Source of the DNA: Prochlorococcus sp. AG-402-M18
GTDB lineage: Bacteria > Cyanobacteriota > Cyanobacteriia > PCC-6307 > Cyanobiaceae
Direction of reading: 5' to 3'
DNA length: 58,556 nt
Assembly: GCA_003216595.1 (NCBI GenBank)
Contig: QCIQ01000008.1
Location: 1-58,556 of the forward strand
Under the pieces are notes generated by a model. The model was given only the letters and a program-made list of their open reading frames with translations, was not told where the DNA came from and did not search any database. Shown here in pieces: positions 14,883 to 54,936 of this stretch. The position numbers and the translations under genes were made by a program. Position 1 is the stretch's first letter. Each line of letters begins with the position of its first letter.

Positions 14883-15401
14883 TTAACTTATCAAAGCAAT
14901 TGCTTCTTTTAATTCGTTCGCATGATTGATCTCATCCTGCGCAATTTCACGTATCCGCTGATCGCTTGGATTAACGGTTAGATACTTTGCATAAGTTTCA
15001 TACGCATGCTCTTCAATTTTTATATTGATATCGTATGCATTTGATGGAGATAGCAAGTAATAAAAAACCATTACCCAGTAATAGAAGAGCACTAAATGCC
15101 TAGCAAGAAATCGATCAACCCAATATCTATTGCCGCTTCGTGATTCCATCTCCTCTAAATGCTCCGTCTCATTGATTGCTTGGTAAAAATGAGCCTTCAT
15201 GAGCTTGTTACTTAAAGAAGACTTTAGACCAAGCGACTCTTGTAAATGCAAAACTGATAAGAATGCAAAATAAGGGGCTCTAGCAATCACCTCAAGAACC
15301 CAAAAACGTTGAATAGGCCTATCTTCGTAGATCCGATCAAGAATACTTACACTAAAAGCTAAAACGAATGAATTAAAACCTTTCATAATTCCTTGACTCA
15401 C
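14883..15401 (-). CDS. ptox: Plastoquinol terminal oxidase (PTOX), alternative oxidase family
   Basis: 172 residues, the compact picocyanobacterial size. The diiron ligands are all visible: E37 in LEVIARAPYFAFLSVLHLQE, E78 and H81 in NETEHLEEM, E130/E131 in EEHAYETY, and E157 with H160 in DEINH. The enzyme oxidises plastoquinol and reduces oxygen to water at the thylakoid surface, relieving over-reduction of the electron chain. A possible start further in (MKGFNSF, residue 6) cannot be excluded. It lies inside the repeat-flanked cassette, near hli genes. Confidence 0.93.
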   Translation of the reverse strand: MSQGIMKGFNSFVLAFSVSILDRIYEDRPIQRFWVLEVIARAPYFAFLSVLHLQESLGLKSSLSNKLMKAHFYQAINETEHLEEMESRSGNRYWVDRFLARHLVLFYYWVMVFYYLLSPSNAYDINIKIEEHAYETYAKYLTVNPSDQRIREIAQDEINHANELKEAIALIS

Positions 15402-15681: not shown

Positions 15682-15861
15682 GTATCAGAAAATTGTTTGC
15701 ACAAACCTAACTGATCTAAAAATATATAGTGTTACGGTTAGCACGAAGTGAATGTTTATCTAATCGAAACTTGTGTAAAAAAATTACTTCAAGCTGTCTA
15801 GGTTTTCCACAGCCTCAGAGTCACTAAATAACTCCATGATCTAAATAAAAAGCAATTCCAA

Positions 15862-15894
15862 TAAAAAAGACCCTAGGTATGGTGTCCTACGGGC
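15862..15894 (-). terminator. Leftward terminator of element copy 1
   Basis: On the minus strand AGGCCCGTAGG pairs with CCTAGGGTCT around an ACACCATA loop (one bulge, one mismatch), followed by TTTTTTATT. Conserved in the second copy of the element. Confidence 0.65.
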
Positions 15895-16080
15895 CTAGGT
15901 GATGGGGAACTTATTTTTAACTGTTTTTCAACCAAATTGCAACCCCTACCATATCTGGTGTTAGAAACATTAAAAAAACAGAAAAAAAGGCCCATATCTG
16001 GAATTATTAGCTTGCGTAATATGTACACAGCGAGTAATATTTACTAATTACTGGGTGATGGGGATCTCTCAGTGTCTTCT

Positions 16081-16103
16081 CCCTCAAATTTGAGGGTTTT
16101 TTT
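16081..16103 (+). terminator. Rightward terminator of element copy 1
   Basis: CCCTCAAA/TTTGAGGG perfect 8-bp palindrome, then seven T residues on the plus strand. Confidence 0.8.
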
Positions 16104-16197
16104 ATGCCATGAATTTCTGCATATAATTTCTAAGATTGATTCAAACGAAATTAGTGAAAAGCTCGTCTGATCAATATTTTTTTCTCAAATCGAAAAG

Positions 16198-32224: not shown

Positions 32225-32429
32225 TTCCCTTTAGCAGTACACATGTACTAGCAAGAAACAATAGGTAATGTCAAGTCATATATTTCAAAACAGCTAATAT
32301 ATATCGCCTGCAATACCAAAAATCGAACAAACAAGATGCTCAAACACGATGAATATTTCAAGGATATAAAGGCTAATTAAAAAAAACTAACGGATAGGTC
32401 CACCACAAATCGAAAAAGCAATAAAAAAA
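32225..32429. other. Intergenic sequence left of element copy 2
   Basis: No gene seen. A/T-rich, without a repeat other than the A-run leading into the terminator at 32421. It is the left part of a 712-base gene-free stretch. Confidence 0.4.
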
Positions 32430-32446
32430 CCCTCATCTCATGAGGG
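32421..32446 (-). terminator. Leftward terminator of element copy 2
   Basis: CCCTCATCTCATGAGGG hairpin (32430-32446) with an A-run at 32423-32429, so a T-run follows it on the minus strand. Confidence 0.75.
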
Positions 32447-32623
32447 CAAAATAAACTGCTGAAGGATCCCCATCACCCAGCTTTCAAAAATAATAATCAA
32501 ATCAATCAGATTAGGCAACATTAAAGCACCATATGTTTTATCTCAGGCTTAAATGAACACCATCTGTAGGGGGGGGGTTGATTTATATGGGAAATAGGGT
32601 TAGAAATAGGATCCCCATCACCC

Positions 32624-32657
32624 AGACCCATAGGACACCATACCTAGGGTCTTTTTT
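32624..32657 (+). terminator. Rightward terminator of element copy 2
   Basis: AGACCCATAGG pairs with CCTAGGGTCT around an ACACCATA loop, with one bulge, followed by TTTTTT. Counterpart of 15862-15894. Confidence 0.75.
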
Positions 32658-32665
32658 ATTGGAAA

Positions 32666-32936: not shown

Positions 32937-33797
32937 ATGATTGATCTCAAAAGAAATAGCAAAAAAGAACCAATTGAAGCCACAGGCATTCGAAGTCGTA
33001 AGTCTTCTCTCTATAAGCCAAATCAACAAGAAGATTTCAAAATTAGTAGAGGTCGTTTCTCAAATTTCCTGACGTGTAAAAGGTGCTTTTATCTCGATAG
33101 GGTAAGAGGTCTTGATCCTCCAGGGACACCAGGTTGGACTCTCAATGAAACCACTGACCTATTACTCAAAAAAGAATTTGACGATTGCAGACAAAAGCAG
33201 GTTCCACACAGAATATTTGCATCTAATGGACTATCTCATGTTGTTCCATTTGATCATCCTGAAATAGATAACTGGAGAAACTCACTTCATCGGGGACTAA
33301 TGCATCGTTACAAGGATACCGGAATAATTTTGACTGGAGGTGTAGACGATATTTGGCAAGACACTATTACAAGACAACTAATAATTGTGGATTACAAATC
33401 ACAAGCAAAAAACGGACGAGTTGATAAGAAAGATTATTTAGAGGATCCTTTTCACGAGGCCTATAAAATTCAAATGGACTTTTATGCTTACTTACTCTCG
33501 GGGATGGGTTTTAGTGTTCATCCAATATCTTTTTTTCTAGTTTGCAATGCAAAAAGGGATGAAGATGAATTTAATAAGACCATGCGTTTTGATGAATATC
33601 TTGTTCCCTACAAGTGGAGCAATGATTGGATAGAGAGTCGCCTAGATGAAATGGTCACACTAATGAATCAATCAGAGATTCCAGAATCAAATCCTTCATG
33701 CAAGAACTGCGCCTATGCAGATCAATATTCGAAAATACTATTTTCAAGAAATTCAAGTAAAAAAGAAATTACACAAGGAACTTTGCCATTATTTTAA
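32937..33797 (+). CDS. PD-(D/E)XK family nuclease (RecB/Cas4-like)
   Basis: 286 residues. Catalytic motifs are intact: GGVDDIW (135-140) and LIIVDYKSQ (149-156, D152 and K154), with Q179 and Y183 in QMDFYAYLL. Cys pairs C47-x2-C50 and C255-x2-C258 could bind an iron-sulfur cluster or zinc, as in Cas4/AddB-type nucleases. The likely role is DNA repair, which is inference. It is followed 57 bases later by an SRAP peptidase gene, a DNA-damage protein, suggesting a repair unit. Confidence 0.8.
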   Translation: MIDLKRNSKKEPIEATGIRSRKSSLYKPNQQEDFKISRGRFSNFLTCKRCFYLDRVRGLDPPGTPGWTLNETTDLLLKKEFDDCRQKQVPHRIFASNGLSHVVPFDHPEIDNWRNSLHRGLMHRYKDTGIILTGGVDDIWQDTITRQLIIVDYKSQAKNGRVDKKDYLEDPFHEAYKIQMDFYAYLLSGMGFSVHPISFFLVCNAKRDEDEFNKTMRFDEYLVPYKWSNDWIESRLDEMVTLMNQSEIPESNPSCKNCAYADQYSKILFSRNSSKKEITQGTLPLF

Positions 33798-33854: not shown

Positions 33855-34493
33855 ATGTGCGGAAGATATCAGCTATTAACAAAATTTATAAATTTACCTG
33901 ACCTTTTAAAAAAAGATGTACCAAGGGGATTGAGTCAAAATTATGAACCACAAATATTAATCAAACCAGGTTCTCCAATTCTAGTTCTTAAGAATGAAGG
34001 TAAGACACAAACATCCATAATGCTATGGGGGTTTATATCTGAGTGGAGTAAAGACCCTTTTGACAACACAAGGCCAAAGCCATTTAACGCGAGATCAGAA
34101 AGTGTTGAAGAGAAGAAACTTTTTCGTGCAAGCTGGAGGCATAAGAGATGTTTGATACCAGCCAGTGGTTTTCTAGAAAAAGGTCACCTAATTGGTAGAA
34201 AAGATTCTCAAACTTTCTGGTTAGGAGGACTTTGGAGTCGATGGATGTCTAAAGAAGGATGTGAACTAGAGAGCTGTTGTGTGCTAACGACCGAAGCAAA
34301 CGATTTAGTCAAACAATTTCATAACCGTATGCCCGTTATTGTTCCAAATGGGCTAGAAGAAGAATGGATCTCTTCAGTTAAAAATGCTCAAGACCTTAAA
34401 GCATTAAAACCGCTAATGACTAAATGGGACCCAGAAGAATGGACAGCCGAGCCAATAAACAAAACTAATGCCGCCCAATTATCCTTCCTATAA
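33855..34493 (+). CDS. SRAP domain protein (SOS response-associated peptidase, YedK/HMCES-like)
   Basis: 212 residues. Starts MCGRY, so after Met removal Cys2 is N-terminal and forms the thiazolidine crosslink to abasic sites in single-stranded DNA. Other family blocks: RPKPFNARSESV, HKRCLIPASGF, and HNRMPVI. The protein shields abasic sites during replication. Closely downstream of a RecB-like nuclease. A terminator follows at 34506. Confidence 0.92.
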   Translation: MCGRYQLLTKFINLPDLLKKDVPRGLSQNYEPQILIKPGSPILVLKNEGKTQTSIMLWGFISEWSKDPFDNTRPKPFNARSESVEEKKLFRASWRHKRCLIPASGFLEKGHLIGRKDSQTFWLGGLWSRWMSKEGCELESCCVLTTEANDLVKQFHNRMPVIVPNGLEEEWISSVKNAQDLKALKPLMTKWDPEEWTAEPINKTNAAQLSFL

Positions 34494-54551: not shown

Positions 54552-54936
54552 TGCTCTTTCTCGTAGTGCTCAAGACCCCGTTCCATGTCTCGAGTCTTAC
54601 TGCAGCTTGAAATTCAGCTGAACGTGTATCAAAAATAACAGAAATTATCTTTAAACGATGTTCCTCATGATACATAAAACAGTGAATTAAGTAGTGTTAA
54701 CCGAAATAGTTGCATTTCTTACTAAAAAGCACCCTTAAATCCCTAAAAAAATTAATTATTTATCCTCTTCTTTTTCTTTCTTAAACTAAACCAACCTTCC
54801 CCTATCCCCTCTTCTTGCAAAAGTCATTAAAGCACAAAAAAAGGATCCTAATATGGAAAAATAATCAAAGTAATTAACGACTTAAACCCAGATAAAGCAA
54901 TATTTTGAAAAATTGAACCAATTCTTCAATAACACT
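54552..54936. other. Intergenic gap, no gene seen
   Basis: About 385 bases between two minus-strand genes. No frame, hairpin or repeat of note. Confidence 0.4.

Follow-up and report, generated by a model that had tools for sequence, protein, structure and literature searches.

The DNA analysed here, referred to as the window, is a stretch of 58,556 nucleotides that makes up contig C8 of a Prochlorococcus genome of 1.62 Mb in 57 contigs. It holds two inverted copies of a short element, each containing the 16-mer CTGGGTGATGGGGATC twice in one orientation. As the first-pass annotation had stated, both occurrences are exact in copy 2, and in copy 1 one is exact and the other carries two mismatches. 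The 16-mers are spaced 156 (copy 1) and 145 (copy 2) bases from start to start, so that 140 and 129 bases lie between them, in agreement with the distance of roughly 130-140 bases given before. These are the only four matches at three mismatches or fewer, against a mean of 0.16 in shuffled sequence, and none of 100 shuffles reached at least four. Near copy 1 lies a gene with an alternative-oxidase domain (14883-15401, minus strand; PF01786, 9.5e-16). Beside copy 2, on the plus strand, a PD-(D/E)XK nuclease-like gene (32937-33797) is followed by an SRAP (SOS-response peptidase) gene (33855-34493). The features of the two copies, in which A and S denote two predicted small RNAs, are the following:

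15860-15912, minus strand: predicted RNA A of copy 1 (model R1, 72 bits, E 4.2e-18; fold -15.4 kcal/mol)
15895-15910, plus strand: 16-mer of copy 1 on the A side, two mismatches; its complement is the seed of RNA A
15914-15942, minus strand: putative RNA A promoter of copy 1; -35-like TTGCAA (15942-15937), 17-base spacer, -10-like TAAAAA (15919-15914)
15948-15963, no strand: box ACCATATCTGGTGTTA of copy 1, an imperfect palindromic repeat; a second, similar box lies at 15992-16006
16046-16105, plus strand: predicted RNA S of copy 1, with hairpin ACUGGG...CUCAGU and terminator at 16081-16103 (model R2, 60.3 bits, E 4.2e-12)
16051-16066, plus strand: 16-mer of copy 1 inside RNA S, exact
32421-32485, minus strand: predicted RNA S of copy 2, with hairpin GCUG...CAGC and terminator at 32447-32429 (model R2, 64.1 bits, E 4.5e-13)
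32465-32480, minus strand: 16-mer of copy 2 inside RNA S, exact
32490-32518, minus strand: putative RNA S promoter of copy 2; TTGCCT, 17-base spacer, TATTAT (promoter scan 9/12)
32608-32660, plus strand: predicted RNA A of copy 2 (model R1, 73.9 bits, E 1.1e-18; fold -14.0 kcal/mol)
32610-32625, minus strand: 16-mer of copy 2 on the A side, exact; its complement is the seed of RNA A

Comparison with relatives supports the view that each copy encodes two divergent small RNAs. RNA A, with a predicted length of about 50 nt, would begin with an unpaired seed of the GAUCCCCAUCACCC type and close in its own terminator, a bulged hairpin followed by a T-run. The seed reads GAUCCCCAUCACCCAG in copy 2 and GUUCCCCAUCACCUAG in copy 1, the latter with two changes with respect to most relatives; the first motif of copy 1, which carries these changes in the window, is intact in many of them. 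The first 14 nt are unpaired in the folds of the A of copy 2 and of that of strain NATL2A. RNA S (about 60 nt, predicted) would show the motif complementary to the A seed in a hairpin, and the A of copy 2 is predicted to form 16 unbroken pairs with either S of the window. As far as its sequence features go, namely the seed and the Rho-independent terminator, A fits the description of a trans-encoded sRNA.

Outward terminators and a common end block had also been described for both copies. The end block is there, and so are a hairpin and a T-run at each end, but the terminator scan flagged only the terminators on the S side (16081-16096 and 32447-32429); the A-side hairpins that it missed are bulged, yet fold at -13.4 to -15.4 kcal/mol. 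The TAATAT- or TATTAT-like boxes upstream of the S-side 16-mers are present. The promoter scan returned one site in copy 2 (shuffle mean 2.9) and none in copy 1 (shuffle mean 2.6), where the putative A promoter was not recovered, and a consensus promoter scan by itself would not have supported the idea of divergent promoters. The putative A promoter of copy 1 was read against a profile built from 58 non-redundant rows of A, of which a few are doubtful. In this profile, TTGATT-like and TAGAAA-like hexamers lie 17 nt apart with the commonest base at 0.40-0.74; the position of these hexamers places the start of A at the seed. According to the earlier proposal, divergent promoters in the centre would give rise to two short RNAs, one with the motif and the other with its complement. 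The covarying S hairpin described below and the unpaired 5' end and terminator of A fit this plan, as do the divergent pairs of many relatives. Boxes like ACCATATCTGGTGTTA and CACCATATGTAGTG recur by eye between the A and S genes of relatives and could bind a regulator.

The search of other Prochlorococcus genomes that had been suggested as a check revealed that the arrangement recurs. Of the 41 genus genomes, 39 contain an exact match to the 14-mer core GGGTGATGGGGATC and none matches the backwards control; by our own reading of the list, two copies of the core stand 143-157 nt apart on one strand in 24 of the 41. When all kinds of site are counted, the core is found in 242 of 300 family genomes, with at least one control match among the matches listed. 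Forty stretches with the paired motif come from named contigs, 39 of them from Prochlorococcus and one from Synechococcus. The partner element is usually inverted and 16-17 kb away, with distances of 13 to 42 kb in some genomes. The sites in these loci can be grouped into three kinds: A-type sites, in which the motif follows an A-run and a hairpin, equivalent to an outward terminator read from the opposite strand; S-type sites, in which the motif lies in a hairpin and a terminator follows; and T-type sites, at the start of a protein gene. A pattern search of these loci gave 81 distinct A-S pairs (28 at less than 70% identity), all of them divergent and with A and S 103-204 nt apart; two loci outside this count, L241 and L242, look tandem by eye. 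In MED4, the pair (S at 348779-348840, complement; A at 348929-348968) lies between Yfr10/Yfr2 and Yfr11. The genome of the window has a third pair, on contig C9, which is counted as decayed because its A core is changed and it shows neither a clean T-run nor a clear S terminator.

One arrangement bears on whether A is a free sRNA at all. In four loci of Synechococcus-like genera (L224, L225, L229 and L233), A and its terminator stand just upstream, and on the same strand, of a gene identified by eye as trpD, which would suit a mainly cis-acting, attenuator-like leader of the downstream gene. In both copies of the window, as in the 81 pairs counted, A is nevertheless directed away from S and closes in a terminator of its own; a leader role is extremely unlikely.

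Model R1 matches at E<=0.01 in 255 of the 300 family genomes and 52 of the 59 genera, figures that are an upper bound, since the antisense strands of S and of the sigma-factor gene discussed below score with R1 too. Matches to R2 are fewer (154 of 300 genomes, 38 of 59 genera). At E<=0.001, R1 matched 28 genomes of the family and three weak ones outside it among 242 class genomes. Phage-borne copies were also considered and rejected: among 34 viral-contig stretches with the 16-mer, only L356 holds a two-motif element, which looks like host DNA, whereas open frames of at least 156 aa cover the remaining 33. Of 17 viral stretches with GGCCGGGTGATGGGGAT, nine are under frames of at least 224 aa. 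The remaining eight (L388, L389, L391, L392, L394, L395, L398 and L401) share another stretch, non-coding and hairpin-like, around GGCCGGGTGATGGGGATTACCT; the four of them that were scanned had no Rfam match.

Covariation analysis, also suggested earlier, was applied to both RNAs, and the outer stem of S covaries. Across 17 S sequences, pairing is present in 87.8% of the cells, with a covariation score of 0.352 compared with 0.231 after shuffling. Four of five measures were attained by none of 500 shuffles; the fifth, pairs changed on both sides, was attained by 25 of 500 and equalled by a slide of -3. Across 55 of the 57 detected windows (L142 and L218 being left out as not S), the outer stem forms on average 4.31 of its 5 pairs, against 3.94 when the 3' arms are re-dealt, and none of 2000 re-dealings was as high. 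For A, RNAalifold gave one pair in six changed on both sides, and 20 A sequences have TCCCCATCACC in common, together with a terminator stem of varying sequence. The invariance of the core in the alignments of A and S is partly a matter of construction, because the core was part of the search key.

The same data weigh on the idea that the motif acts as DNA, as the binding site of a regulator or a recombinase, with no RNA made from it. The palindromic boxes in the centre of the element would agree with it, as would the fact that transcription is deduced rather than observed, but the covarying S and terminator stems and the T-runs on the expected strands are constraints of the RNA type, which leaves the DNA-site reading only a very slight probability.

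Beyond the two copies there is a third partner that the first-pass annotation overlooked: a sigma-factor gene, at its start codon. Outside both copies, the genome holds a single exact match to the 14-mer, which begins 5 nt ahead of the ATG of this gene, reaches codon 3 and is preceded by AGAGGCCA. The product, of 340 aa from the ATG or 341 from a GTG, is a group-2 sigma factor (TIGR02997, 395.9 bits with a cut-off of 384.5), and the preceding gene reads like a polyphosphate kinase. Both PMM1697 qPCR primers (PMC2921402) fall inside the MED4 sigma gene, which is therefore rpoD4 (PMM1697); the printed position of Yfr10 likewise agrees with the identity of this genome as MED4.

Complementarity of A to the start region of this mRNA is conserved. 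Between the A seed and the start of rpoD4, the longest unbroken run of Watson-Crick pairs measures 11-15 nt in 11 of the 13 genomes with both sites (11 nt in MED4, L440) and 7 nt in the other two, while shuffled means are 5.8-7.7 nt, with single maxima up to 14; a 17-nt run of SS120 (L222) was left out of the count as antisense of S. The two genomes with 7 nt, G085 and G070, keep A but have an altered rpoD4 start (GGGTGTGGGG), with 8-9 nt if G-U pairs are admitted. At one position the two sides change together: in G045 and RCC307, GGGGAC of rpoD4 faces GUCCCC of the seed, elsewhere GGGGAU faces AUCCCC, and in G044 and MIT9313 (L306) this same position is a G-U wobble. The bases at the rpoD4 start are also constrained as surroundings of the Shine-Dalgarno sequence and as codons. 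Duplexes of full-length A were only modestly better than those with shuffled rpoD4 (16, 2 and 9 of 500 shuffles as good), and their energies are of little use because the duplex breaks the terminator hairpin.

In some genomes, either A or the intact rpoD4 site is found without the other. Among the genomes without an A match whose rpoD4 start could be read (all but G063 and G108), the rpoD4 motif is absent in g10 (4), g23 (1) and g33 (1), which favours a link between the two, and three of g9 have variants. G199, a g10 genome outside this set, has an A match at 8e-7. Against the link, the rpoD4 motif persists in G075, G084 and G089, three genomes in which strict filters yielded no A. Elsewhere in the genome of the window, the sequence at a likely ftsZ start (L148, 626-640) is GGTGATGGGAATGGG, which differs from the 12-mer core by one mismatch. 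This ftsZ 15-mer is exact in the four genus genomes of 121 family genomes, and its other matches are mismatched and look scattered, so that ftsZ is a weak candidate target.

The predicted energies for MED4 allow the possible partners of A to be compared. Its seed pairs with S at -31.4 kcal/mol, with rpoD4 at -28.0 and with Yfr2 at -12.3, and the Yfr1 motif pairs with rpoD4 at -10.3. S, which holds a copy of that rpoD4 site, is thus predicted to pair with A at least as strongly as the target does. The stronger pairing with S could also mean that A and S are real, mutually antisense sRNAs devoted to mutual control or to other targets, and that the rpoD4 match is incidental or minor. The retention of A in G085 and G070, where the rpoD4 site is weakened, and the one-mismatch site at a plausible ftsZ start in the genus point in the same direction. 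However, the rpoD4 start retains its long unbroken pairing in most of the genomes compared, and it is the only exact site among the 10 outside the copies that lie within one mismatch of the 12-mer, so that this reading is unlikely.

A different partner for S has also been considered, namely an RNA-binding protein that would bind both S and a hairpin at the rpoD4 start, S titrating the protein and A acting as a secondary modulator. In line with this possibility, S folds as a hairpin with an inner GAU(GGGG)AUC, and a similar fold is predicted at the start of rpoD4. The conserved divergent A gene, with its exact complement, is nevertheless a simpler partner; the involvement of such a protein seems very unlikely.

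The preferred reading is that A probably represses the translation of rpoD4 and that S is a co-encoded decoy that titrates A. Comparison among relatives establishes, at the level of sequence, the layout, the S hairpin, the terminators and the complementarity of A to both S and rpoD4; transcription, repression as the direction of the effect and the role of S as a decoy are what we infer. Each copy would be a divergent pair of genes for small trans-acting RNAs. The unpaired 5' seed of A would cover the start codon of the rpoD4 mRNA and the bases just before it, most likely blocking translation. S, by presenting a hairpin copy of the rpoD4 start region, would pair with A and titrate it as a target mimic, and the balance between the A and S promoters would tune the output of RpoD4.

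From the perspective of known RNAs, the gathering scan of the window against Rfam found no match at either copy, and permissive scans of both copies gave sub-threshold matches only. The sole gathering match in the window is a glutamine-II riboswitch (RF01704) at 54569-54627 on the minus strand (51 bits). Identity with the Yfr RNAs of MED4 was rejected for 17 stretches, 14 at printed coordinates (Yfr8-Yfr21) and three neighbouring ones for Yfr2, Yfr4 and Yfr5, none of which matches A or S; Yfr3, Yfr6 and Yfr7 were left out of this comparison and Yfr1 was compared by motif only. The best sub-threshold scores on these stretches were 10.4 bits for R1 and 13.3 bits for R2, the latter on the Yfr2 stretch (E 0.02), against 36.7 and 35 bits for MED4 A and S. 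RNA A does not belong to the Yfr1/Yfr10 family, defined by the motif ACUCCUCACAC, since the best match of the A motif in the Yfr10 stretch has five mismatches; the Yfr10 and Yfr18 stretches contain CTCCTCACAC exactly, where A contains TCCCCATCACC. Nor is S a member of the Yfr2 family, whose members have, at an unpaired 5' end, a conserved motif complementary to Yfr1 and, in their centre, a 12-nt loop that tops a long stem with bulges: the best match of the S motif in the Yfr2, Yfr4 and Yfr5 stretches has four mismatches. The MED4 pair is absent from Table 1 of PMC2518516, and no description of the A-S pair was found in the literature searched on Yfr RNAs, PMM1697 and sRNA sponges; a later Yfr name is possible.

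The first-pass annotation knew of no described RNA family with this plan. No identical family was found, but the nearest working precedent had been missed: Yfr2 keeps Yfr1 and Yfr10 off their targets, according to PMC6778093. There, too, two multi-copy sRNAs with near-complementary motifs pair and one of them holds the other back from its mRNA targets, and in high-light strains Yfr10 is encoded beside Yfr2, another likeness to A and S (PMC6778093). The principle of the A-S pair thus resembles the Yfr1/Yfr10-Yfr2 crosstalk, while the motifs, the architecture and the predicted target differ. Yfr10 and Yfr2 are in tandem (PMC6778093), whereas A and S are divergent, and the Yfr2 motif lies in an unpaired 5' end, whereas that of S lies in a hairpin. 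PMC3142192 reports PMM1697 itself, earlier a predicted target of Yfr1, as a pseudo target.

Complementary small transcripts from one locus are also described for Yfr8/Yfr9 and Yfr6/Yfr14 of MED4, but these overlap in cis, reach up to 290 nt and may encode peptides (PMC2518516), whereas A and S occupy separate positions and are complementary over a single short stretch; the Yfr8, Yfr9 and Yfr14 stretches have no match to either. Yfr103, from low-light Prochlorococcus and marine Synechococcus, has several paralogs and an imperfect palindrome upstream of its start, as A and S do, and its CC9605 paralogs measure 290-328 nt (PMC5069720). A and S, of about 50-70 nt, occur in high-light strains as well, and identity with Yfr103 is unlikely given its described length. 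Among enterobacterial sRNA sponges and target mimics, such as the traps of ChiX, an RNA copies the target site and titrates the sRNA. In those cases the decoy usually derives from an mRNA or a tRNA precursor, whereas here a dedicated gene, adjacent to and divergent from the sRNA gene, would encode it.

Protein regulators are few in Prochlorococcus. In addition, Hfq is absent from 10 of 12 sequenced strains according to PMC2518516, and together these two facts make the timing of sigma-factor switches a live question. RpoD4 is one of the five sigma factors of MED4; the level of its transcript follows a daily cycle and goes up when nitrogen is depleted (PMC2663038 and PMC2758279). As a tentative proposal, for which we claim somewhat less confidence than for repression by A and titration by S, the locus would set an antisense repressor of RpoD4 back to back with a hairpin replica of the rpoD4 translation start, and the output of the sigma factor may then depend on the ratio of the two divergent promoters and on neither RNA alone. 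Such a module would be widespread in one marine cyanobacterial family and multiplied, with two intact pairs and one decayed in the present genome, in bacteria that mostly lack Hfq. A conserved sRNA whose match to PMM1697 is far better than that of Yfr1, encoded together with its decoy, would offer a directly testable answer to how these switches are timed, in an arrangement widespread in the family to which the most abundant photosynthetic cells of the ocean belong.
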